From: Holophagaceae bacterium
Lineage (GTDB): Bacteria; Acidobacteriota; Holophagae; Holophagales; Holophagaceae
Assembly: GCA_025357545.1 (NCBI GenBank)
Contig: JANXPB010000131.1
Location: 1-61,687 of the forward strand
DNA length: 61,687 nucleotides
Direction: 5' to 3'
Positions 1-31,801 of this stretch are shown piece by piece (position 1 is the first letter of the stretch; every line of letters begins with the position of its first letter). The notes under the pieces were generated by a model that did not search any database, was not told the DNA's origin, and worked only from the letters and a program-made list of their open reading frames with translations. The translations under genes and the position numbers were made by a program.

Positions 1-290
1 GAAGTGAATCCCAAGAGCCTGGTGGGTCCAGCTGTCCCTCGTGACCCGGCGCTTATTTTTTGGGGCGGAGAGTGGGGGATTCGAACGGTAGCGGCGGCCC
101 GATAGCGGTTGGCGGAGGTCGCGGGAGCGACCGCAGCCGGAACCGCGGGGCCAGCCGATGCCGTGGAACGCAGCGCGCAGCGCGAAGTGAATCCCAAGAG
201 CCTGGTGGGTCCAGCTGTCCCTCGTGACCCAGCGCTTATTTTTTGGGGCGGAGAGCGGGGAATTCGTACGGCAGCGGCGGCCCGGTAGAT
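1..290. repeat. Tandem direct repeat, period 183 bp, at the left edge
   Basis: A block starting GAAGTGAATCCCAAGAGCC at position 1 recurs at 184. The two copies match with scattered differences for about 105 bases, giving a period of 183. The first copy, read on the minus strand, contains GTTCGAATCCCC and ACTCTCCGCC, which resemble the T-loop and acceptor end of a tRNA. The bases before the loop do not form a T-stem, and the second copy has lost the TTCGAA loop, so no tRNA gene is called. The array probably continues to the left of the window. Bases 1-312 hold no gene. Confidence 0.8.
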
Positions 291-3304: not shown

Positions 3305-4867
3305 TCACACCATCTCCAGATTCAAAATCCCCGGGATGCCCCGCAGGGAAGTGACCTGTTTGGCGGGGACTGAGCGGTCCACGGTGATGGCGGCCAGGGC
3401 CTGGCCGTCGCCGGTGGCGCCCAGCGAGAAGTTGATTATGTTGATGCCCGCGGCGCCCAGGTGCGATCCCACGAGACCGATGATGCCGGGCCGGTCCTCG
3501 TTGCGCATGAGGATGAAATGGCCGCGGGGGTCGAATTCCAGCTCGACGCCATCCATGCGCACCACGCGAGGGCCGCGATGCAGCGTGGCTTCCATTTCCC
3601 GGGGGCTGCCGTCGGCTTCCACGCGCACCCTGAGCAGGCGGTCGAAGCCATCGCCATCGCCACCCAGGGTCTCGCTCACTTCGAGACCGCGCAGAGCCGC
3701 TTCCTGGAGTGCATTCACCGGCGTCACCCGGCCCGACGCGGTGCCCAGCAGGGCCGCCACCAGCATCCGGGTGAGGGGTTTGGGGTCCAGCTTGTCCACG
3801 CGCCCGGAATAGGTGAGGTGCAGTTTGGTCGGCGCGGGGACCAGCCGTGAGCAGAGCTTGCCCAAAGCACTCATCAGGGGCATCCAGGGGCCCATCTCCA
3901 GCGCGGCCTCGGCGGAGAGGGGCGGCAGGTTCACGCAGCCGGCCACGGCGCCGGTCTGGATGAAATCGAGGATTTGCCGCGCGAGGATGGTGCTCACGGC
4001 CTTCTGCGCTTCGGACGTGGAGGCGCCGAGGTGCGGCGTGAGGATGAGCTTGGCATGGCTGCGCAGCGGCGAATCCGCCGGCAGCGGTTCCTGCACGAAG
4101 GTGTCCAGGGCCGCGCCGGCGAGATGGCCTGAATCCAGGAGCTTCACCAATGCCTTTTCATCCACCAGCCCGCCCCGGGCGGCGTTGATCAGGTAGGCGC
4201 CCTTCTTCATCTTCTTGAGTTTCTTCTCATCCAGCAGGTTGGTGGTTTCCGCCGTGCGCGGGATGTGCAGGGTGACGATGTCGCACCAGGCCAGCAGCGC
4301 ATCGAGGTCCATCATGGGTACATTCATTCGGCCCGCCACGGCGGCCGGCAGGAAGGGGTCGAAGGCGGCCACTTCCATGCCGATGCCCCGGGCCTTGCGC
4401 GCCATGGTGGCCCCGATGCGGCCGAGCCCGATTACCGCGAGGCGCTTGCCCTCAAGCTCGAAGCCCGTGAGGCCGGCCTTGGGCCATTCGCCGGATTTCA
4501 TCTCGGCGTCCGCCTTCGGCGTGTGCCGGGCCAGGGCGAAGAGCAGCGCCATGGCCTGTTCCGCCGCCGCCAAGGTGTTGCCGTCCGGCGCGTTCATCAC
4601 CGCGATGCCGCGGTCCGTGGCGGCCTCCACATCGATGGTGTCGACGCCAGCGCCGGCGCGCCCGATGACCCTCAGGGCGTTGGCGCCTTGGAGGGCCTCC
4701 AACGGAACCTTGGTGGCGCTGCGCACCAACAGCACATCCACATCCTTCAGGGCCTTTGCAAGGGCCGCCGGATCCTTGATGGGGTCCGAAGTGATGACCT
4801 CCCAGCCCGCGCTGCGGAAGGTCTGAAGGCCGTCTTCATGAATGCCGTCGCAGGCAAGAACTCGCAT
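3305..4867 (-). CDS. serA: D-3-phosphoglycerate dehydrogenase
   Basis: The 520-residue length is that of the long SerA type. The Rossmann motif VIGLGRIGATMA is at about 145-156, the catalytic arginine in INAARGGLVDE near 228-238, and the catalytic histidine in TPHLGAST near 277-284. The intervening (ASB) domain follows, then a C-terminal ACT domain (HFILMRNEDRPGIIGLVGSHLG) near 448-469 that in the family senses serine. It oxidises 3-phosphoglycerate to phosphohydroxypyruvate, the first step of serine synthesis. The ATG with GGAG six bases upstream was preferred to a TTG four codons earlier. It follows the class V aminotransferase gene, separated by an inverted word-repeat element. Confidence 0.95.
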   Translation of the reverse strand: MRVLACDGIHEDGLQTFRSAGWEVITSDPIKDPAALAKALKDVDVLLVRSATKVPLEALQGANALRVIGRAGAGVDTIDVEAATDRGIAVMNAPDGNTLAAAEQAMALLFALARHTPKADAEMKSGEWPKAGLTGFELEGKRLAVIGLGRIGATMARKARGIGMEVAAFDPFLPAAVAGRMNVPMMDLDALLAWCDIVTLHIPRTAETTNLLDEKKLKKMKKGAYLINAARGGLVDEKALVKLLDSGHLAGAALDTFVQEPLPADSPLRSHAKLILTPHLGASTSEAQKAVSTILARQILDFIQTGAVAGCVNLPPLSAEAALEMGPWMPLMSALGKLCSRLVPAPTKLHLTYSGRVDKLDPKPLTRMLVAALLGTASGRVTPVNALQEAALRGLEVSETLGGDGDGFDRLLRVRVEADGSPREMEATLHRGPRVVRMDGVELEFDPRGHFILMRNEDRPGIIGLVGSHLGAAGINIINFSLGATGDGQALAAITVDRSVPAKQVTSLRGIPGILNLEMV

Positions 4868-4886
4868 GGGGAACTCCAATGTATTT

Positions 4887-5038
4887 GAAACCGCGAATGA
4901 CGCGAATCAACGCGAAATTAAAAGGGGATATTTCAGAAAAGAACAGTTGGCCCTCAAGGCCGTCGACCTGGAGATGAACCTGCTTCTGGCGCCGAACGAA
5001 GGATTTTCATTCGTGTTGATTCGCGTCATTAGCGGTTA
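4887..5038. repeat. Inverted word-repeat element A (CGAAT/ACGCGAAT words)
   Basis: The left arm (4888-4918) reads AACCGCGAATGACGCGAATC and onward. The right arm (5005-5037) is nearly its reverse complement, with only three or four differences over about 30 bases. About 85 bases lie between. The element fills the gap between the class V aminotransferase gene and serA. The arms are built from the repeated word CGAAT with spacers, the same architecture as the elements in the ilv/leu block but a different word. Confidence 0.8.
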
Positions 5039-19877: not shown

Positions 19878-20906
19878 TCAGGCGCCAGCCACTGGTGTGG
19901 CGTTCGATACTTCGACGGGGTCCAGGAAGGGCATCTTGGCCCGCAGTCCGCGCCCCACCTGTTCCAGGAGCTGGTCCTGTCCGGCGGCCCGCTGGGCCTC
20001 GAACCAGGGCCGCCCTTTTTTGTTCTCTTCGATCCAGGCCTGGGCGTAGCGGCCGTCCTGGATCTCCCCTAGGATGCGGCGCATCTCGTCCCGCGTTGCC
20101 TGGGTCACCAGGCGCGGGCCTCCGGTATAGTCGCCGTATTCTGCCGTGTCGCTGATGGAGTAGCGCATGTAGCTGAGGCCGCCGCGGTACATGAGGTCCA
20201 CGATGAGCTTGAGTTCATGCAGGCATTCGAAATAGGCGATCTCCGGCTGGTAGCCCGCTTCCACCAGAGTCTCGAAGCCCGCCTTCACCAGTTCACTCAT
20301 GCCGCCGCAGAGGACCGCCTTCTCACCAAAGAGGTCGGTTTCGGTTTCTTCCTTGAACGTCGTTTCCAGCACGCCCGCGCGGGTGAGCCCCAGGGCTTTG
20401 GCATAGCTCAGCGCCAGGGCCCTGGCGTGTCCGCTGAAGTCCTGATGCACCGCCACCAGGGCCGGCGTGCCGCTGCCTTCCACGAAGAGCTCCCGCACCC
20501 TGTGGCCGGGACTCTTGGGAGCCACCATGCTCACGTCCACATGCCCAGGCACATCAATGCAGCCGTAGCGGATGTTGAAGCCGTGGGCGAACATCAGTGT
20601 CTTGCCCTTGGCCAGGTGCGGCACCACGTGGGTGTTGAACAGTTCCGCCTGAGCCGTGTCCGGGGCCAGCACCATCACCACCTCCGCCCAGGCGCAGGCT
20701 TCGGAAAGGCCCAGCACCTGCAGTCCTTCGGCTTCGGCCATGGCTTTGGAACGGCTGCCCGCCAATAGGCCCACCCGCACGTCCACGCCGCTGTCCCGCA
20801 GGTTCAAGGCATGGGCATGGCCCTGCGATCCGTAGCCCAGGATAGCCACGCGTTTCGAGCAGATGAGCGCCAGGTCGGCGTCGCGATCATAGAAAAGGGT
20901 GGCCAT
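19878..20906 (-). CDS. ilvC: Ketol-acid reductoisomerase, class I
   Basis: The 342 residues match a class I (short) enzyme. The NADPH motif [21 protein letters not shown] is at about 20-40, with GLLAGSRSK setting the cofactor specificity loop. [15 protein letters not shown] is near 128-142. The metal-binding residues lie in [18 protein letters not shown] near 186-203, with the second set in [14 protein letters not shown] near 222-235. It converts acetolactate or acetohydroxybutyrate to the dihydroxy acids. GAGGAG precedes the ATG. Only 51 bases separate it from ilvN. Confidence 0.96.
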
Positions 20907-20957: not shown

Positions 20958-21497
20958 TCAAACCGACATCGCCAGGGGCGGATAATCTACCTCGGGCCGT
21001 TTGAGCGGCACGACGGTGGGCAGCGTGCCGCGGGCCATCGCCAGGGCCCCGGTGCGGCTGAGTTCCATCAACCCGTAGGGGCGCAGAGCATCGGCCAGGG
21101 CTGAGATTTTTTCAGCACTGCCGCTGCATTCCAGCACCACGGAATCCTCCGCCACGTCGACCACCTGGGCCCGGAAGGCCTGGCCCACCAGCAGCACCTG
21201 GCCCCTTGTGGTAGCCGGGGCGGAGACTCGCAGCAGTGCCAGGTAGCGCACCACCGATGGACGCTCCGAGAGGATTTCCACCCGCAGCACATTCAGCAGC
21301 TTTTCCAGATGGGCGGCCACGCGGCGGGCCCCGGTCTCATCGCTCTCCACCACCATGGTCATGCGCGACGTGCCGGAGGTTTCGGCAGGCCCGACGGTGA
21401 GGGAATGGATGTTGAACGCCCGCCGTCGCACCAGGGAAGTCACGCGGTTCAGGACGCCGGGTTCATCGTCAGTGGTGGCTACGAGGATATGGGCCAT
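20958..21497 (-). CDS. ilvN: Acetolactate synthase small (regulatory) subunit
   Basis: A 179-residue protein with an N-terminal ACT domain (residues 1-75). DEPGVLNRVTSLVRRRAFNI is the typical valine-binding strand and helix, followed by the LTVGPAETSGTSRMT stretch and LEKLLNVLRVE. The C-terminal ALS_ss_C domain (about 82-160) ends with LMELSRTGALAMARG. It confers valine feedback on IlvB. It is read directly after ilvB, with a word-repeat stretch in the 78-base gap. Confidence 0.94.
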   Translation of the reverse strand: MAHILVATTDDEPGVLNRVTSLVRRRAFNIHSLTVGPAETSGTSRMTMVVESDETGARRVAAHLEKLLNVLRVEILSERPSVVRYLALLRVSAPATTRGQVLLVGQAFRAQVVDVAEDSVVLECSGSAEKISALADALRPYGLMELSRTGALAMARGTLPTVVPLKRPEVDYPPLAMSV

Positions 21498-21575: not shown

Positions 21576-23300
21576 TTAAATGTCCGCACCGGTTTCGGCG
21601 AGGACTGAAGGCGTTGCGGGAATCGGCCGGCGGATCATGGCATCCAGCGCGGCCCCCGCCGGCACCATGGGGAAGACCGTGTCCTCCTGCTCCACCCGGA
21701 AATCGATGAGGAAGGGGCCTTCACAGGCCCGCGCGGTTTCGATGGCCCGCACGGCCGCTTCACGGGTGCTGACGCTCAGTCCTTCGATGCCGAAAGCCGC
21801 CGCCAGCTTCACGAAATCCGGGCTGAGGATGGGTGTGCTTGAGTAGCGCCGCTCGTAGAAGAACTCCTGCCACTGGCGCACCATGCCCAGGTAGCCGTTG
21901 TTGATGATGGCGATGTTCACCTTCAGGCCTTCCTGGACCAGCGTCATCAGTTCCGGCATGGTCATTTGGAACCCGCCGTCCCCGGCCACCACCCAGACCT
22001 CTTTGTCGGGCCGAGCGATTTTGGCACCCAGGGCCGCGGGCAGCGCGAAACCCATGGTGCCCAGGCCTCCGCTGGTGATGAGGCTGCGAGGCTCCTCGTG
22101 GTGGTAGTACTGGGCCTCCCACATCTGGTGCTGGCCCACATCCGTGACGACGATCGCGGTGCCCTCCGTGAGCCGCCAGAGGTCGTGGATGACGTGGGCC
22201 GCGAAGAGCCGGCCTTCATCAGGCATGGATTGGATGTCCCGCACGGCGGCAGCCCCCTTCAGGGCTTCGATCCGGCCCAGCCACTCCCGGTGGTCGTGGA
22301 AATCCAACTCCGGAAGCAACTTATCCAGGAAGGCCCGCAGGTCCCCGGCCACCCCCAGATCCACAGGCACGTTCTTCCCTAGTTCCGCGGGATCGATGTC
22401 GATGTGGATCTTCTTGGCATGTTGGGCGTAGGTGGCCAAGGTGCCCGTCACGCGATCATCGAAGCGCATCCCGAAGGCCAGCAGCAGATCCGCTTCCTGG
22501 ATGGCCTGGTTTACCCAGGCCTCCCCATGCATGCCCATCATGCCTAGGTTCAGCGGGTGCTGGGCCGGGACAGCGCCGATGCCGAGCAAGGTCGTGGCCA
22601 TGGGGGTCCGGGTGCGCGCCGCAAAGGCCAACACCTGTTCTTTTGCGCCGCTCAACTCGATGCCATGGCCCGCGAGGATGAGGGGCCTTGCCGCACCCCG
22701 GATGAGGTCCAGGGCCGCTGTCACCTGTTCTTCGGTGAAAGCCGGAAGGCTGCACCGCAGGTGGCGGGTGGGTTCCGCGCCCTCCCAATCCAATTCCGTT
22801 TTCGCTTGCTGCGCGTCCTTGGTGATATCCACCAGCACGGGGCCGGGGCGGCCCTGCCGCGCCACCGCGAAAGCTTCCCGCAGGACCGGGGCGATGTCCT
22901 CCGCGCGGGTGACCAGGTAGTTGTGCTTGGTGACCGGCAGCGTGACGCCCGTGACATCGACCTCCTGGAACGCGTCGGTGCCCAGCAAGCGCGAGCCCAC
23001 CTGCCCGGTGATGGCCACCATGGGAATGGAATCCATCAGCGCGTTGGCGAGACCCGTCACCAGGTTCGTGGCGCCGGGCCCCGAGGTGGCGATGACCACG
23101 CCAACCCGTCCCGAAGCCCGGGCATAGCCGTCTGCCATATGGGCAGCCCCCTGCTCGTGGCGCACCAGCACGTGGCGGATCGGATAATCCAGCAGGGCGT
23201 CGTAGGCCGGCAGGATGGCGCCTCCGGGGTAGCCGAAGACCGTGTCCACGCCCAGGCGCACCAGGCATTCCCAAAGGATCTGGGCACCGCTCAACTGCAT
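21576..23300 (-). CDS. ilvB: Acetolactate synthase large (catalytic) subunit
   Basis: A 574-residue ThDP enzyme. It shows VFGYPGGAILPAYDAL near 21-36, the catalytic glutamate in VRHEQGAAHMADGYARASG near 47-65, SGPGATNLVTGLANA near 73-87, a FAD-binding middle domain, and the ThDP/Mg motif VVAGDGGFQM with the later NNGYLGMVRQWQE near 465. The ATG with GGAG six bases upstream was chosen; the frame is open for 50 further codons into repeat sequence but has no conserved residues there. It condenses pyruvate, or pyruvate with 2-oxobutyrate, at the head of valine, leucine and isoleucine synthesis. Confidence 0.95.
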   Translation of the reverse strand: MQLSGAQILWECLVRLGVDTVFGYPGGAILPAYDALLDYPIRHVLVRHEQGAAHMADGYARASGRVGVVIATSGPGATNLVTGLANALMDSIPMVAITGQVGSRLLGTDAFQEVDVTGVTLPVTKHNYLVTRAEDIAPVLREAFAVARQGRPGPVLVDITKDAQQAKTELDWEGAEPTRHLRCSLPAFTEEQVTAALDLIRGAARPLILAGHGIELSGAKEQVLAFAARTRTPMATTLLGIGAVPAQHPLNLGMMGMHGEAWVNQAIQEADLLLAFGMRFDDRVTGTLATYAQHAKKIHIDIDPAELGKNVPVDLGVAGDLRAFLDKLLPELDFHDHREWLGRIEALKGAAAVRDIQSMPDEGRLFAAHVIHDLWRLTEGTAIVVTDVGQHQMWEAQYYHHEEPRSLITSGGLGTMGFALPAALGAKIARPDKEVWVVAGDGGFQMTMPELMTLVQEGLKVNIAIINNGYLGMVRQWQEFFYERRYSSTPILSPDFVKLAAAFGIEGLSVSTREAAVRAIETARACEGPFLIDFRVEQEDTVFPMVPAGAALDAMIRRPIPATPSVLAETGADI

Positions 23301-23350
23301 GGGAACTCCGGATGGATGCGCAGACAGAACTTTCCTGAAGCCCGCGTATT

Positions 23351-23392
23351 CGAGGTGATGAGGGGTGAGGTTGTGAGCTGTGAGGAGTTGAG
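23351..23392. repeat. Tandem short-word stretch (GGTGAGG/TGTGAGG words)
   Basis: CGAGGTGATGAGGGGTGAGG followed by TTGTGAGCTGTGAGGAG is a run of 7-8 base words upstream of ilvB. It adjoins element E. No gene is seen in the 441-base gap 23301-23741. Confidence 0.6.
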
Positions 23393-23458
23393 CTTTATTC
23401 AAAAGAATGAAAAAACCACGCAGACTCATCGCGGGCCGGAAGGCAGCCAAGGAACTGG

Positions 23459-23741: not shown

Positions 23742-25526
23742 TCAGGCGAAGGCCAAGGAGGCCCCTTCCGATGCGGAGGTCGCGGATTTGGCGTAGCGGG
23801 ACATGACGCCCCTAGGGACGTGGGTAGGACGGGGTGACCAAGCGGTCCGACGCCGGGCCAGTTCCTCGGAAGCCACTTCAAGATTTAGTTGCCGCGCCGC
23901 CACGTCGAAGGTGATCAGGTCACCCTCCCGGACCAGGGCGATGGGCCCGCCTACGGCGGCTTCGGGCGACACATGGCCTGCCATGAACCCATGGGTCGCG
24001 CCGGAAAAGCGGCCATCCGTCAGCAGGGCCACGGATTCCCCGAGGCCCGCGCCGTGCAGGGCCGCCGTCACCGCCAACATCTCCCGCATGCCCGGGCCGC
24101 CGCGGGGGCCTTCATACCGGATCACCAGCACATCGCCATCTTTGACATGGCCCGCCCGCACATATTCAAAGGCCGCTTCCTCCCGGTCGAAAACCCGCGC
24201 AGGGCCACGATGGTAGCGGCGCCCATGGCCCGCCAGCTTCACCACGGAACCTTCCGGGGCGAGGCTGCCTTTCAGGATCGCCAACCCGCCCGTGGACTGG
24301 ACAGGATGGTCCCAATCCCGCACCACGCATTGTCCGGGGCGCTCCACCACATCGGCAAGGGACTCCCCCAGGCTTATGCCATCGACCGTCAAGGGGCTCG
24401 GGTCCAACAAGCCCTTGTCCAGAAGGCGTTTGGCGACGAGGCCCACGCCCCCGGCCCGGTGCAGGTCCGCCGCCACGAAACGGCCGCCGGGCTTGAGGTC
24501 CGCCAGGATGGGGGTGCGTTCGTTAACGCGGTCGAAGGTCTCGAGATCCAGGTCCACGCCAGCTTCCTTGGCCAGGGCCAGCAGATGGAGCACCGCATTG
24601 GTGGAGCCGCCCGTGGCGGCCACGCAGGCAATGGCATTTTCAAAGGCGGCGCGGTTCAGGATGTGGCTGGGACGGAGATCTCTGCACACCAGCTCCATGA
24701 CCTTGCGGCCCGCGGCCTCCGCCACGTCCTTCCGCTCCTGTTCCTCGGCCGGGGCCCCGGCGCTGCCCAAGGGCGAGAGGCCCAGCACCTCGAAGGCGGT
24801 GGCCATGGTGTTGGCCGTGAACTGCCCCCCGCAGGCCCCGGCACCAGGGCAGGCATTGTCTTCCAGATCACGGTAGCGCGCGGGCGCCATGCCCACCTGA
24901 CCCACGGCCTCGAAGACATCCTGGATGGTGACGTCGCGCCCCTCCACGCAACCGGGTGCCGTGGGCCCTCCATAGAGCACCAGACCTGGCAGGTCCAAGC
25001 GCACCAAGGCCATGGCCACGCCGGGGTGGGTCTTGTCGCAGCCCGCCAGGCAGACCAAGCCATCGAATGGGTAGGCGCGGCCTACCAACTCTATTGAATC
25101 TGCTATTAAATCTCTGCTTATTAAAGATGTAAACATTCCTTCAGTACCCATGGTTATACCATCTGATACTGAAACTGTATTAAATTCCATGGGTGTGCCG
25201 CCGGCCTTCCGGATGCCTAATTTCACATATTCGGCGAGTTCACGAAGGTGGAGGTTGCAGGGCCCGATTTCGGTCCACGTATTCGCCACGGCGATGATTG
25301 GCTTGGCCAAGTCCTCGTCATTGAAGCCAGCGGCCTTCAACATGGCCCGGGCCGGTGCGCGGCGGTGGCCTTCCACCAGGGGTCGGCTGCGGAGGGGCGG
25401 AAACCGGCCACCGGAATCGGCGTGATGGCCATCGGCCTGGGCCTTGTAGCCGCTCTGGCCCATGGACCAGCCGGTGGTATCGGCGGTGATGTCGGTGCTG
25501 TTCTGGGAATGCGGCGGGGTATCCAT
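23742..25526 (-). CDS. ilvD: Dihydroxy-acid dehydratase
   Basis: A 594-residue IlvD/Edd-family enzyme. Iron-sulphur cysteines are in [13 protein letters not shown] and in [35 protein letters not shown] and [16 protein letters not shown] are family signatures. It dehydrates the dihydroxy acids to the 2-oxo acids of valine and isoleucine. Residues 1-60 form a poorly conserved extension. GAGG lies before the ATG. Codons from about 25191 down to 25083 ([12 protein letters not shown] through ADSIELVG) use ATA, TTA, AGA and TCA heavily and are about one third G+C, unlike the rest of the gene, although the protein sequence stays normal. The gene is led by an attenuator. Confidence 0.95.
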
Positions 25527-25560: not shown

Positions 25561-25600
25561 AAAAAAAAGCCCCGCGACCGGAGTGAGGGGCGGGGTGGGG
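25561..25600 (-). terminator. Attenuator terminator of the ilv operon
   Basis: On the minus strand CCCCGC (25595-25590) and GCGGGG (25575-25570) form a stem with a 14-base loop, followed by C and eight T residues (25568-25561). The stem-loop lies 44 bases before the ilvD ATG. The segment 25600-25589 (CCCCACCCCGCC), which includes the 5-prime stem arm, can instead pair with GGCGAGGTGGGG at 25646-25635 in the leader, with 11 of 12 bases matched. That gives mutually exclusive antiterminator and terminator forms. Confidence 0.85.
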
Positions 25601-25625
25601 AGCTGATCGGATGTGTTCGTTCCGT

Positions 25626-25757
25626 CTAGGGGTCCCCCACCTCGCCGCTAATAATTACGACGACCAGTACCACCTCGCTAATGACGGAGCCGCTCTGCAG
25701 GCCGAATCGGCCCGAGAGGGACAGCGCATGCCGCGAGTAGGTGGTGGGGAACTTCAT
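25626..25757 (-). CDS. ilv operon leader peptide (attenuator control peptide)
   Basis: This 43-codon frame reads MKFPTTYSRH through EVVLVVVIISGEVGDP and ends at TAG. The codons GTG GTA CTG GTC GTC GTA ATT ATT (25673-25650) are an uninterrupted run of valine, leucine and isoleucine, the three products of the downstream pathway. The run lies just upstream of the antiterminator strand, so a ribosome short of charged Val/Leu/Ile tRNA would stall there and let the antiterminator form. A ribosome reaching the stop would cover it and allow termination. No clear Shine-Dalgarno is seen, and if the proposed promoter is right the peptide may be translated from a nearly leaderless RNA. This is too short for routine gene calling. 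Confidence 0.85.
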   Translation of the reverse strand: MKFPTTYSRHALSLSGRFGLQSGSVISEVVLVVVIISGEVGDP

Positions 25758-25763
25758 GCCGTC

Positions 25764-25827
25764 AAGCTTAACCCCGGGTCATCACATGTCAAGTTCAAAT
25801 CATAAAATAAACACATAATTCATTTTT
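25764..25827 (-). promoter_or_regulatory. Probable promoter of the ilv leader
   Basis: On the minus strand TTGACA is at 25793-25788. TTAAGC (25771-25766) follows at 16 bases, or AAGCTT (25769-25764) at 18, both weak -10 candidates. Transcription would then begin within about ten bases of the leader ATG at 25757. An alternative -10, TATGAT at 25804-25799, would give a leader of about 35 bases but lacks a good -35. The A+T-rich stretch 25795-25827 directly follows leuB, with no terminator visible after leuB. Confidence 0.5.
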
Positions 25828-26949
25828 TCACTCCGTGAGGGCCACCAACCCACGACTGGCGCCGCTCCAGGCCAATTCCGAGAAGCGGCGGCGGATGCGG
25901 CTCCCCAGATCGGTGGTGCCCACCGGAAGCCGGGCTTCCCGCAGGTCCGGGGTTCCATAGCCCTCCGCCAGCACGCTCCGAGTGGCCTCTTCTAGCAGCC
26001 TCGCTTCGGTGTCCAGACGGAGGGTATGCCGCAGCAGCAGCGCCGCTGAAAGGATGGCTCCCACCGGATTGGCAATGCCGCGGCCTGCGATGTCCGGCGC
26101 GGAGCCATGCACGGGTTCGAAGAGATCCACGGAACCGCCCAGGCTGGCCGAAGGAAGCAGTCCCAAAGATCCCGGCAGCACCGCGGCCTCGTCGCTCAGG
26201 ATGTCGCCAAAGAGGTTCTCCGTCAGCAGCACATCGAAGCTCGCGGGGCGCATCACCAGGGCCATGGCGCAGCTGTCCACGTACTGGTGGTCCAGAGCCA
26301 CATCCGGAAAATCCTTGGCGACGCGCTCCACCACCGCGCGCCAGAGCTGCGAGCTCTCCAATACGTTGGCCTTGTCCACGGACGTGACCTTGCGGCGGCG
26401 GTCCCGGGCCAGCTCGAAGGCCATCCGCGCCACGCGCTCCACTTCTGTATCGGTATAGGCCAACGTGTTGAAGCCGCGGCTCGCGTCGAGGCCCCTGGGT
26501 TCGCCGAAATAGAGCCCTCCCGCCAGTTCCCGAACGATGAGCAGGTCCGTGCCCCGCACGATGGACGGCTTCAACGGCGAAGCGTCCAGTAGCCCCTCCT
26601 CCACCCGCACCGGCCTCAGATTGGCGAACACGCCCAACCCTTTGCGCAACGCCAACAACCCGGATTCCGGCCGCAGATGCGCAGGCAGTGCATCGTGCTT
26701 CGGCGAACCCACGGCTCCCAGCAGCACCGCGCGGCTGGCGAGGCAGGCGTCCAGTGTTGCGTCGGGTAGAGGCACGCCTTCCACATCCAGGGCCGCGCCT
26801 CCGATGGCATGGCAGGTGAAATCAAAGTCGTGGAAAAACTCCTGTGCCACGGTCTCCAGGCAAGCCACAGCTTCAGCGGTGACTTCCGGCCCCACGCCAT
26901 CTCCTGGAAGCACGGCGATGCGGGTGGGCGAAAGAGCTGGCGCGCTCAT
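25828..26949 (-). CDS. leuB: 3-isopropylmalate dehydrogenase
   Basis: The 373 residues match Leu[14 protein letters not shown] (residues 11-23) is the N-terminal motif. [19 protein letters not shown] near 97-115 holds the substrate arginines, and [17 protein letters not shown] near 137-153 follows. [16 protein letters not shown] contains the catalytic lysine, [13 protein letters not shown] and [23 protein letters not shown] hold the metal aspartates, and [13 protein letters not shown] is the NAD-binding signature. It oxidises and decarboxylates 3-isopropylmalate in leucine synthesis. Its ATG overlaps the leuD stop by four bases (ATGA). Confidence 0.96.
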
Positions 26950-27470
26950 GAAGCCACTTCCTGGGAGCGCTTGGCTAGAACAAAGGGCAGCAGGCCACCG
27001 GCGGCCAGCAGCTCCTTCGCAAAATCCGTGAGGGGCACAAAGCGGGAGTCACAACCGCGGGTGTGGTTGCGCAAGAGACCCTGCTCCAGATCCACCTCCA
27101 GGTCGTCGCCGCTGGCGGCCAACTCCGCAGCGCCGACGCATTCGATGGCCAGAAAGCCATTGTTGAGGGCGTTGCGGAAAAAAATCCGGGAAAAACTCTG
27201 GGCGATGACAACCTTCACACCGGCGCCGCGCAGGGCCCATACGGCGTGTTCCCGTGAAGACCCGCAGCCGAAATCCTCCCCGGCCACCAGGATGTCGCCA
27301 GGTTTCACCCGCCCCACGAAGCCATCGTCGATGTCCTCCATGGCGTGGCGCGCCAGCTCGGCCTCGTCATGGACGTTGAGATGCCGGGCGGGAATGATCT
27401 CGTCGGTGTTGATGTGGGGCCGGCCGTAGACATGGGCCTTGCCGCGCAGGAGGGTCTGGATGTCAGGCAT
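26946..27470 (-). CDS. leuD: 3-isopropylmalate dehydratase small subunit
   Basis: A 174-residue protein of the short, archaeal-like LeuD/HacB type, with [13 protein letters not shown] near 20-32, [23 protein letters not shown] near 58-80 (the swivelling-domain signature), and [21 protein letters not shown] near 91-111. The real start is the ATG with AAGGATC upstream; the frame continues 42 codons into a repeat element but has no conserved residues there. It forms the isomerase with LeuC. It overlaps leuB by four bases and is separated from leuC by element F. Confidence 0.94.
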
Positions 27471-27542
27471 GGTGGGATCCTTCGGAGGTGCGTGCGGTTG
27501 AGCCTGGGTGTGGATGCATATACCCAGCCGCATAATAAAAAT

Positions 27543-27790
27543 TTGAACCACCAAGACACCAAGAGCGCCAAGAACACCGAGAAAAGCCAAAGGCATCCGT
27601 CATGCGCCAGCTTCGCGGACGAAATTCATGCGGCTCGACGACGGCCTCACGCTTCGAGCGATCCGCGCCGGGCCGCCTGAACTTCCGGGCTTTCAGCACG
27701 CAGGCGCGACGCGCCTCGTGAAGCGGTTGTTGGCCGGAGCCAATGATGATGAAACTTGGTGTTCTCGTGTCTTGGTGGTTCATCTTTTCA
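27543..27790. repeat. Inverted word-repeat element F (ACCAAGACACCAAGA words) with GC-rich core
   Basis: The left arm (27543-27590) begins TTGAACCACCAAGACACCAA and continues with AGAGCGCCAAGAACACC. The right arm (27752-27790) is the inverted set, TTGGTGTTCTCGTGTCTTGG. Next to the left arm lies the core CATCCGTCATGCGCCAGC (27594-27611), the exact inverse of the core at 19494. The element fills the 369-base leuC-leuD gap, where no gene is seen. Confidence 0.8.
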
Positions 27791-27839
27791 CCTGGCTGGT
27801 ATTTGGAAAGATCATACGTGATGGCAACTGCCCCTGAGG

Positions 27840-29171
27840 TTAGACGCCCCAGAGGTAGTCGTCGGTGCCCGTGGGCGCCAAAACGGGGCGGTCGAGGCGC
27901 GGCAGGTAGTCCCGGGGATCGGCGATGACCCCGGCGATGGCCGTCGCGGCGGCGGTGGCGGGGCTCGCCAGGAAGACTTCGCTCTTCGTGGAGCCCATGC
28001 GGCCGATGAAATTGCGGTTCGTGGTGGAAAGGCATTTTTCGTCGGGCCCCAGCACGCCCATGTGGCCGCCTAGGCAGGCGCCACAGGTGGCCGTGGACAC
28101 CACGCAGCCCGCGTCCGCGAAGATCGCGAGCAGCCCTTCCCGCATGGCCTGTTTCCAGACCTCCGTGGTGGCGGGCACCACAATGGCGCGGGTCCCGGCG
28201 GCCACCTTGTTTCCCGCCAGGATGGAGGCCGCCACGCGCAGATCCTCGATGCGGCCATTGGTGCAGGACCCGATGTACACCTGATCCATTCTCACCGGGC
28301 CCACCTCGCCGATGCAGCGGCCGTTGGAGGGCAGGTGCGGCAGAGCCACCATGGGCTCCAGGTCCGACACCTGGATGCGGTGGCGGGAGGCGTAGTGCGC
28401 CTCGCCATCGGATTCGAAAATGCGGAAGGCGTCCTGGGTCCGCGCCTTCACGTAGTCCTGGGCCACGTGGTCCGCGGCCATGATGCCGCTCTTGCCGCCG
28501 GCTTCGATGGCCATGTTCGTGATGGTGAAGCGGGCCTCCATGGAGAGGCTGGGCAGCGCGCTGCCTCCGTACTCCATGGCCATGTAGCGGGCGCCATCCA
28601 CGCCGATCCGCGCAATGATGCTGAGGATGATGTCCTTGGAGTAGACGCCGAAGGGCAGTGCGCCTTCTAAATCGAAGCGCATGGTTTCGGGCACCTTGAA
28701 CCAAAGTTCCCCCGTGGCCAGGGCCGCCGCGAGGTCCGTGGAGCCGATCCCCGTGGCGAAAGTGCCCAGGGCTCCCATGGTGGTGGTGTGGCTGTCCCCG
28801 CAGACGATGGTCTGGCCCGGTAGCACGTGCCCCTGCTCCGGCGCCAAGGCGTGGCAGATGCCGTGGTTGCCCACCTCGTAGTAGCGCTGGATGCCCTGCT
28901 CCTCGCGCCACTTCCGCAGCTGGGAGGCCAGTTCCGCGCTGCGGATGTCCTTGTTGGGCACGAAGTGGTCCGGCGTCACAAGGATCTTTGAAGGATCGAA
29001 GACCTTGTGGATGCCCAGTTTCCTGAGCATGGCCACCGCCGGGGGCGTGGTGACTTCATGGCAGATGATGAGGTCCAGCGATGCATTGATGATCTCGCCC
29101 GGCACCACGTGCTCGCGGCCGCAGTGATCCGCAAGGATTTTTTCGGTGATGGTCATGGGGGGTTGGGTCAT
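27840..29171 (-). CDS. leuC: 3-isopropylmalate dehydratase large subunit
   Basis: A 443-residue aconitase-superfamily protein of the shorter LeuC2/HacA-like type. The Fe-S cysteines are in [15 protein letters not shown] and in [39 protein letters not shown] is a strong family signature near 122-145. It isomerises 2-isopropylmalate to 3-isopropylmalate with LeuD. AGGAAC lies before the ATG. The gap from leuA is 79 bases and partly made of word repeats. Confidence 0.94.
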
Positions 29172-29194
29172 GAAAGTTCCTGGTGAAGCGGGGA

Positions 29195-29222
29195 TGGGCT
29201 GCAGGCTGTGGGCTATGGGCTA
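29195..29222. repeat. Tandem short-word stretch (CTGTGGGCTATGGG words)
   Basis: The sequence ATGGGCTGCAGGCTGTGGGC followed by TATGGGCTATCAGG repeats a 7-8 base word. It lies in the leuA-leuC gap. Confidence 0.55.
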
Positions 29223-29249
29223 TCAGGCCCAGGACCCAGAACCACATCT

Positions 29250-30794
29250 TCAGGCGCTGGCCGCGGATTGGAGCGCCCGGCTCCCTCTGGCGTAGAGCAG
29301 TTTGTTGACGGCGTTCAGGTAGGCCCGGGCCGAGGCATCCACGATGTCCGTGCTGGCGGCCTTGCCCGAGGCGGCCGAACCGCCGAAATCCACGTGCACG
29401 AAGACCTCGCCCACAGCGTCGGCGCCCATGGTGATGGAGCGCACGGCGTAGTCCAACAGGGTTCCCCGCAAGCCCGTGAGCTTATCGATGGCGGTGCACA
29501 CCGCGTTCACCGGACCATCGCCGGGGGCCGTTTCCGTGGACTCGACCTCCCCGTCCCACAACGTCACCAACGCCGTGGAGGTCGCGGACGTCCCAGCGGT
29601 GGCCTGCACCGCCCGCAGCTTCCAGACCTCGGGAATCTGCGCGAGGCCATCCTGCACGATGGCCAGCAGATCCTCTTCGAAGATCTCTTTCTTCTGATCC
29701 GCCAGCTTGATGAAGATCTTGTAAGCCTTTTCCAACTCGGCTTTCGACAGGGTGAAGCCCATCTCCTTGAACCGCTGGTCCAGGGCATGGCGGCCGGAAT
29801 GCTTGCCCAGCACCAGGCTTTGCGTCCTCGCCCCCACGGATTCCGGCGTCATGATCTCGTAGGTGCGGCGGTGCTGGAGCACGCCGTGCTGGTGGATGCC
29901 CGCCTCGTGGGCGAAGGCGTTGCGACCCACGATGGCCTTGTTGGGCTGCACGTGGACGCCCGTGATGTTGGACAACAGCTGGCTGCTGCGGGTGATCTGC
30001 TCGGGCACCACTCCGGTCCCGAAAGGCAGGCGGTCGCCGCGCACTTGGAGGGCCATGACCACTTCTTCCAGGGAGGCATTGCCCGCCCGCTCGCCGATGC
30101 CGTTGATGGTGCATTCCACCTGCCGCGCACCGGCCTCCACCGCCGCCAGGGAGTTGGCCACGGCCAGGCCCAGATCGTCGTGGCAGTGGACGCTGAGCAC
30201 GGCCTTCGAAAGATCCGGCACGCGCGCCAGCAAGGTGCGGATGAGCTGGCTGAATTCGCTCGGGATGGCGTAGCCCACCGTGTCCGGGATGTTCACCACG
30301 GTGGCGCCCGCTTCGATGACGGCCGCCACCACCTGGCAGAGATAATCCACATCCGTGCGGGTGGCATCCTCGGCGGAGAACTCCACATCGGCGGTCAGGG
30401 ATTTGGCCATGCGCACGCCCGCCACGGCCATCTCCAGGGCCTCGGCCCGGGTTTTGTTCAGCTTGTGGTGGAGGTGGATGTCCGAGGTGGCCAGGAAGGT
30501 GTGGAGGCGGGGCCGCGCCGCCCCCCGCAGGGCCTCCCAGGCCCGGGTGATGTCCTGGGGCAAGGCCCGGCAGAGGCCGGCGATGATGGGCCTGCGGCAA
30601 GCCCGGGCCACCGCCTGCACCGCCGCGAAATCATCCTCTGAGGCGACGGGGAAGCCCGCCTCGATGATGTCCACGCCCAGCAAGTCCAGCTGCCTGGCCA
30701 TACGCACTTTTTCATCCACGTTCATGCTGCAGCCCGGCGACTGCTCCCCGTCCCGCAGGGTCGTATCGAAGATCGACACCCTCGCCTGGCCCAT
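29250..30794 (-). CDS. leuA: 2-isopropylmalate synthase
   Basis: A 514-residue enzyme with the DRE-TIM barrel first: [19 protein letters not shown] (residues 6-24) has the metal and substrate arginine and aspartate. [22 protein letters not shown] near 202-223 has the metal histidines, and [20 protein letters not shown] follows. The C-terminal LeuA allosteric domain (about 385-505) includes [12 protein letters not shown]-like sequence. It condenses acetyl-CoA with 2-oxoisovalerate. The ATG with GAGGTG upstream was chosen over one 15 codons earlier. It is the first gene of leuACDB and diverges from the LysR gene. Confidence 0.95.
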
Positions 30795-30889
30795 GAAGCA
30801 CCTCGCCCAAAACCCAAGGCTAGTGTCGGCATCGTACAAAATATAATTTATTATTTTTACAATTTCATTAATTTATTTTATTATTCTCT
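30795..30889. promoter_or_regulatory. Divergent A+T-rich promoter region between leuA and the LysR gene
   Basis: Of the 95 bases between the two start codons, about 54 (30836-30889) are nearly pure A+T. Several T-N11-A type dyads are possible (for example around AATTTCATTAATTT), as expected for a LysR-family binding site, but none stands out. The LysR ATG comes directly out of this A+T tract with no Shine-Dalgarno, so its mRNA may be leaderless. Confidence 0.5.
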
Positions 30890-31801
30890 ATGGACCTCGG
30901 CCAATTGGAAGCTTTCCTCCACGTGGCCCGCGAGAAGAGCTTCTCCCGGGCGGCGGACAAACTCTTCCGGACCCAGCCCGCCCTGAGCATCGCCATCAAA
31001 AAGCTCGAGGAAGAGCTGGGCGAGGCCCTCTTCGATCGCAGCACTAAGGGCGGGTCGCTCACCGAAGCCGGCCATACCCTGCTCTCCTACGCCCAGCGCA
31101 TGTTGAACCTGAGGGAAGAAGCCCTGGAAGCCGTGGGCGAGTACCGTCGGATGCTCGGCGGTCGGCTCGTCATTGGCGCCAATGAGAGCACCTCCCTGTA
31201 CCTGCTGCCTCCCCTGCTGCTGCGCTACCGCTCCGCCTTTCCGCAGATCAAGATCCAGGTGGAGCGCCACCTTTCGGAACGACTGCCCGGCGAGGTGCTG
31301 GAGCGCAACCTGGACTTCGGTTTCCTGTCCTTCGATCCGCCCCAATCCGGCCTGGAGTCCCTGGCGGTGCACACGGATGAACTCGTCCTGGTGGTGCCGC
31401 CGGGCCATCCCTTCGCGCGCCGCGACCACGTGACCATCCGCGAGTTGGGCAAGGTCACCTTCGTGGCCCACAACGCGCGGACACCAGCCCGGACCCGGAT
31501 CTTCGAGCTCTTCGCCAAGCACCGCACGCCCCTGAACATCGCCATCGAGTTGGCCACCCTGGAGACCATCAAGGACTTCGTGCGCCTGGGGGAGGGCCTG
31601 GCGATCCTGCCGCGGCTCTCGGTGCAAGACGCCCTAGGCGCAGGCACTTTGATCGAAGTCCCGGTGAAGGGCATGCGCATCGAGAAGACGCTCCGCATGG
31701 TGTACCGCCGCGAGGACACGCTCTCCCACGCGGCCAAAGCCTTTCTGTCGCTCGTGCGGGACGAGAGCGAATCGCTGGCCCTCAACCCAACGCGTCCATG
31801 A
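30890..31801 (+). CDS. LysR family transcriptional regulator, divergent from leuA
   Basis: A 303-residue LysR protein. The winged helix-turn-helix is at residues 1-65 ([42 protein letters not shown]), and the linker helix and two-lobed effector domain follow from about 90. Divergent placement against leuA is the usual arrangement for a LysR protein and its target, so it probably controls leuACDB, as LeuO or IlvY-type regulators do elsewhere. The effector could be 2-isopropylmalate or a 2-oxo acid; nothing in the sequence settles this. Confidence 0.88.

Follow-up and report, generated by a model that had tools for sequence, protein, structure and literature searches.

Introduction

The enterobacterial ilvGMEDA and ilvBN operons are preceded by a leader with Ile, Val and Leu codons and by mutually exclusive antiterminator and terminator structures, and strand 1 of the enterobacterial ilv attenuator is the segment that contains the control codons. 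For the ilvBNC operon of Corynebacterium glutamicum, the start of the transcript has been placed 1 nt from the leader start codon (PMC11857589), and the leader mRNA has been described as one without a ribosome binding site, the start of which is shielded by an anti-antiterminator (PMC11857589, PMC10272879). Candidate branched-chain amino acid (BCAA) leader peptides have also been presented for the ilvB motif of Actinobacteria and for the ilvB-OMG and Leptospira ilvB motifs (PMC1262725, PMC10272879). In Streptomyces coelicolor ilvB, the control codons were reported to be without effect (PMC1262725), and a leader alone is therefore not proof.

Here a stretch of 61,687 nt from an uncultured Holophagaceae bacterium (contig JANXPB010000131.1, positions 1 to 61,687; hereafter the window) was analysed together with its relatives. 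The region in front of ilvD is, with high probability, a ribosome-mediated transcription attenuator that controls ilvD-ilvB-ilvN-ilvC.

Results

On the minus strand of the window the genes are ordered leuA-leuC-leuD-leuB and, after a gap of about 300 nt, ilvD-ilvB-ilvN-ilvC. The layout is leuACDB-[attenuator]-ilvDBNC, with the attenuator internal to the leu-ilv cluster. The initial annotation had described an operon led by ilvD; ilvD is indeed the first ilv gene, yet on this strand it is directly preceded by leuA-leuC-leuD-leuB. The features, with genes named by sequence recognition, are as follows.

26946-30839, minus strand: leuD, leuC and leuA, preceding leuB
25828..26949, minus strand: leuB, directly upstream of the attenuator
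25764..25792, minus strand: promoter-like site of the leader, TTGACA (25792-25787), 17 nt, AAGCTT (25769-25764), or TAAGCT after 16 nt
25757-25626, minus strand: leader peptide ORF of 43 codons, MKFPTTYSRHALSLSGRFGLQSGSVISEVVLVVVIISGEVGDP and stop, read from the sequence, with homologous leaders sharing a conserved tail in relatives
25743..25752, minus strand: strand 1 (putative anti-antiterminator) in leader codons 2-5, GUUCCCCACC, paired with strand 2 in minimum-energy folds of the leader RNA
25673-25650, minus strand: control codons 29-36, V V L V V V I I (GTG GTA CTG GTC GTC GTA ATT ATT)
25646-25635, minus strand: strand 2 (antiterminator strand), GGCGAGGTGGGG
25600-25589, minus strand: strand 3, CCCCACCCCGCC, which includes the terminator 5' arm
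25561..25595, minus strand: intrinsic terminator, CCCCGC (25595-25590), loop, GCGGGG (25575-25570), eight T (25568-25561)
23742..25526, minus strand: ilvD (dihydroxy-acid dehydratase), first gene past the attenuator
21576..23450, minus strand: ilvB (acetolactate synthase large subunit), with a true start probably internal to this ORF
20958..21497, minus strand: ilvN (acetolactate synthase small subunit)
19878..20906, minus strand: ilvC (ketol-acid reductoisomerase)

A gene recognised by its sequence as LysR-family-like (30890-31801, plus strand) is divergent from leuA and may provide additional promoter-level control of leu.

The initial annotation had claimed a 43-codon leader with eight consecutive Val/Leu/Ile codons directly before an antiterminator strand, a pairing of 11 of 12 positions between that strand and one containing the terminator 5' arm, and a terminator with eight T residues. 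All of this was found again in the sequence, at the same coordinates. Among the 879 small ORFs of the window (10-75 codons, both strands) the leader is the only one with eight I/L/V codons in a row, and such a small ORF occurred in one of 30 first-order Markov simulations of the window. Four of the eight control codons are rare synonyms: GTA and ATT, each present twice, account for 9 of the 273 Val codons and 12 of the 140 Ile codons, respectively, in the eight leu/ilv genes, for which the starts of ilvB and leuD are approximate. A translatable leader with a run of codons for the end products, as expected of a ribosome-mediated transcription attenuator, is present and is kept in relatives.

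The strand 2/strand 3 duplex of the window has an energy of -25.8 kcal/mol, which was equalled by two of 300 dinucleotide shuffles of the strand. The terminator scan of the window is by itself unremarkable (one found, 1.2 expected in shuffles). As in known attenuators, the intrinsic terminator lies between the leader and the first structural gene and the antiterminator uses its 5' arm, with duplex energies of some relatives falling within the shuffle range. The antiterminator register is shifted in the window, where GGUGGGG pairs with CCCCACC, and genus g6 is similar (GGGGCGG with CCGCCCC). A small hairpin, CGGA...TCCG, is located between the leader stop and strand 3 (25624-25608, minus strand) and likewise in locus L057, and genus g4 has CGG...CCG at this position; the hairpin may draw strands 2 and 3 together.

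The -10 match of the promoter-like site is weak in the window (2-3 of 6). Of 24 leaders from Holophagaceae and G143, 23 have a TTGAC that begins 34-38 nt upstream of the start codon, a count favoured by the choice of start among in-frame options in L086, G018a, G025a, G025b, G022 and G143; at that spacing it is absent from L062 and from all six leaders of family f3. In 17 of the same 24 leaders a -10 hexamer has A and T at its key positions, and the f3 leaders L065, L066 and L068 have GGAG six to nine bases upstream of the start. The RNA start was placed relative to TTGAC from the usual promoter spacing. Transcription from the leader's own promoter would in this way begin at the leader ATG or a few nt away from it, in the window at the ATG or 1 nt from it, so the leader mRNA is probably leaderless. 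In predicted folds of the window and of most genus g4 leaders, though not of all lineages, strand 2 is paired with the opening codons of the leader (strand 1), which in the window are situated about 70 nt upstream of the control run.

Orthologues of ilvD were sought in 93 genomes of the class, and 28 loci had readable upstream sequence (L095 and L101 were left out; L063 and L067 are at contig edges). A leader and a terminator precede ilvD in 27 of these 28 loci, which indicates that the arrangement is not a product of chance. Nineteen loci carry a leader with a BCAA run or a BCAA-rich end, eight carry only a second, sparser type, and one (G030) carries none. The eight loci with the second type alone all belong to genus g4, presumably Geothrix, and their leader ends like LVLRLTG. 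Two leader-plus-terminator units stand in series before ilvD in the g4 loci L061, L090, L092, L093, L099 and L100, where the second-type ...LVLRLTG leader comes first and is followed by the BCAA type with its own promoter-like site, and also in the f3 loci L065, L066, L068 and L083. In the f3 genomes L148 and L149 the operon is ilvD-ilvC-ilvB, without a leu gene ahead of it in the stretch read, so that the leader is tied to the ilvD-led operon and not to leuB. A scan for BCAA runs upstream of ilvD in 55 named loci returned only the sister genome L001, at a threshold too strict to pick up genuine leaders known from relatives.

Each of the 30 leaders analysed has a strand 2 that pairs with its strand 3. 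In a first set (n = 19), 15 leaders had a duplex energy that no more than 11 of 300 shuffles reached, the others being within the shuffle range (L064, 23; L062, 26; L083, 46; L065, 107 of 300 shuffles); in a second set (n = 11), the duplex energy was reached by at most seven of 300 in six leaders and by 18 to 31 in five. Strands swapped between lineages often pair equally well, because all are GC-rich. The initial annotation had made the conservation of leader codons and pairing in relatives decisive, and both are kept; the search for covariation that it proposed gave one event across families and none within the close family. Within the close family (10 distinct rows), none of the 12 antiterminator pairs has changed on both sides and the pairs are invariant, hence the pairing there rests on invariance. 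Across families, genus g13 of family f3 (L070 and L071) differs at the base shared by the two helices and at both of its partners, an antiterminator G-C having become U-A and a terminator C-G having become A-U. This is one event, seen in two of the eight sequences; as many changed pairs arose in 217 of 500 shuffles, and as high a covariation score in 17 of 500. As judged from these alignments, covariation appears weak.

To model ribosome positions, the RNA ahead of the ribosome was folded at each codon, taking as covered 13 nt from the first base of the A-site codon, a coverage assumed from general knowledge. The end of the control run and the last A-site position at which strand 2 is still free are no more than two codons apart in all 30 modelled leaders. 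As long as the 3' arm of the terminator has yet to be synthesised, a ribosome in the control run lets strand 3 be captured in every one of them, and the capture is lost within two codons of the end of the run. With this assumed footprint, the folding calculations have a stalled ribosome freeing strand 2 and a terminating ribosome covering it, as an attenuator demands. Control residues make up 174 of 240 positions in the eight codons up to the last strand-2-free position, 33 of 203 after it and 225 of 754 before it; leaders were partly found via BCAA richness, which biases these counts and, less so, the position of the control codons. At equilibrium, the terminator probability in the window is 0.0 with the ribosome at V29-V34, 0.5 at I35 and 0.99 from I36 to the stop. 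The model predicts for the window leader a stronger response to shortage of Val or Leu than of Ile, because a ribosome waiting at I36 would already cover strand 2. Most of the other 11 leaders simulated favour the terminator at equilibrium at nearly all ribosome positions, and the order of synthesis, with a kinetic advantage of the antiterminator, must therefore matter there.

A covariance model, R1, was built from 11 relatives with the window excluded, and it recovers the window at E=1e-12. Matches at E 0.01 or less, many of them weak, were obtained in 43 of the 93 class genomes. They include a new leader directly before ilvB in G036, further leaders in G009, G018b and G025b, and strong matches in genus g6: in G030 the gene downstream is ilvE-like (Aminotran_4), and in G033 a LysR-like start comes next, with an ilvA-like threonine dehydratase gene (PALP with Thr_dehydrat_C) behind it. 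The same leader and LysR-like start as in G033 are present in G018 and G025, and the three loci (L134, L136 and L139 in G018, G025 and G033, respectively) possibly represent an attenuator controlling a regulator, the LysR-like gene. A weaker match, L143 (G026:C222:8788-8880, minus strand), is a leader with a Thr run, STTTGITTTTTARVRRV, and a terminator; this leader (TTTGITTTTT) precedes genes for a GHMP kinase and threonine synthase (thrB/thrC-like), from which it follows that the control residue goes with the pathway.

Outside the class, three R1 matches in the phylum were read (G143, G149 and G219). G143, from another family of the phylum, has the leader RVLGLLVIDVLVLE before an ilvD-like start followed by ilvB, ilvC and leuA. 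In G149 and G219 the match is a terminator unaccompanied by a BCAA leader, and both were rejected. A second BCAA scan with a terminator criterion, which examined 55 of 57 named loci, yielded L001, L004 and L005. Upstream of ilvD (about 4700-5000), the acidobacterial loci L004, L005 and L006 contain the strand GGATGATGG and then a hairpin, one arm of which is complementary to this strand while the other repeats it fully or in part; in L004 and L005 a BCAA-containing short ORF is located upstream of this strand. Their sequence is unrelated to that of the window, the layout with a T-run is the same, and L004 and L006 are labelled acidobacterial gp1 and gp2. A scan that required strand 2, strand 3 and an identical repeat of strand 2 retrieved L004 and L006 (two of 55 loci; controls, 0 of 1100). 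The exact-second-copy scan found none in 26 loci of the class of the window, because second copies there are imperfect, and the exact L004-type pattern was absent from 297 sampled genomes of the phylum.

Discussion

Ribosome-mediated attenuation is supported, every computable prediction (control codons, strand competition and stall geometry) being borne out in the window and its relatives. The model is built on sequence elements, their conservation, energetics and geometry, and from these we infer transcription start, leader translation, termination and amino-acid response. The leader RNA would be made from the leader's own promoter, perhaps also by read-through from leu, and a ribosome closely following RNA polymerase would translate the leader peptide. 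A shortage of charged Val, Leu or Ile tRNA would stall this ribosome in the control run and leave strand 2 free to capture strand 3, so that no terminator forms and the polymerase enters ilvD. With charged tRNA plentiful, the ribosome would reach the stop codon and cover strand 2, allowing the terminator to form. In an untranslated leader, strand 1, consisting of the first codons, would pair with strand 2 and the terminator would likewise form.

A plain intergenic terminator ending the leu operon, with a leader ORF arisen by chance and an ilvD served by its own promoter, would fit a terminator placed between leuB and ilvD, and one such site equals the shuffle expectation. This is very unlikely, given that other genera and families retain the leader, its control run and the antiterminator strand, including loci with no leu gene ahead of them in the stretch read, and that a conserved promoter-like site is found upstream of the leader. 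The leader might also act mainly through translation, by re-initiation or coupling to ilvD, or as a trans-acting peptide, as has been claimed for peTrpL of S. meliloti (PMC7298713). We consider such action without termination highly improbable as well: the leader stop is about 100 nt upstream of the ilvD start, with the terminator between them, and the last leader residue varies (P, S, F) whereas the strand-2 nucleotides are constant.

The high degree of structure in the leader RNA (z -2.35) would suit another RNA regulator, be it a T-box, a riboswitch or a protein-binding attenuator, next to a coincidental ORF. No Rfam family, T-box and known leaders included, reached the gathering score in the window or in 10 homologous loci, and below threshold only microRNA matches with E up to 5 appeared. 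Furthermore, the reading frame and control codons persist even where leaders differ greatly in length, and before thr-like genes the control residue is Thr, which leaves this explanation hardly any credence beside ribosome-mediated attenuation.

The attenuator seems to be new as a conserved system in this class, as far as literature searches show. Searches on attenuation or leader peptides in Acidobacteria, Acidobacteriota, Geothrix and Holophaga found no description, and a 2010 survey by Lopatovskaya and colleagues could include acidobacterial cases. On balance, and with some hesitation, we favour the view that Holophagaceae possess a lineage-wide set of attenuators with leaderless leader mRNAs, in which the start codon would be the transcription start and the first codons the anti-antiterminator, covering BCAA (ilvD, ilvB, ilvE, ilvA) and thr genes; tandem attenuators with different leaders would occur in g4 and f3, the first in g4 gating read-through from leu to ilv. 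Translation initiation would then itself be part of the switch. Little is known about gene regulation in the large phylum Acidobacteriota, and these leaders would make transcription-translation coupling and initiation on leaderless mRNAs testable there with one simple reporter system.

The initial annotation had recognised here the logic of the enterobacterial ilv operons in an apparent acidobacterium, and its guess of the phylum was correct. As in ilvGMEDA and ilvBN, an Ile/Val/Leu leader is combined with mutually exclusive antiterminator and terminator; by contrast, ilvD leads here, the predicted mRNA leaves no space for a ribosome binding site, and strand 1 of the window consists of codons 2-5 instead of containing the control codons. 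The candidates from other phyla share a short BCAA-rich ORF before ilvB and, in Actinobacteria, a terminator (PMC1262725, PMC10272879), whereas the gene is ilvD here and no Rfam match was obtained. The locus is closer to the leaderless C. glutamicum ilvBNC attenuator than to the enterobacterial ones, because the predicted start is at the leader start codon and strand 1 is formed by the first codons of the leader. The classical mechanism is already known, and a leaderless leader with an anti-antiterminator at the start codon is known from C. glutamicum. There, ilvBNC (ilvB-II motif) likewise combines a BCAA-rich leader peptide with anti-antiterminator, antiterminator and terminator, and its anti-antiterminator is the leader start, as in the predicted folds of the window and most g4 leaders. 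The two regions have no common sequence by eye, in a comparison made without alignment. Start site and regulation, measured in C. glutamicum, are predicted here; the C. glutamicum leader has 15 codons, compared with 43 codons and an uninterrupted eight-codon run in the window, where the attenuator is placed before ilvD and after leuB.
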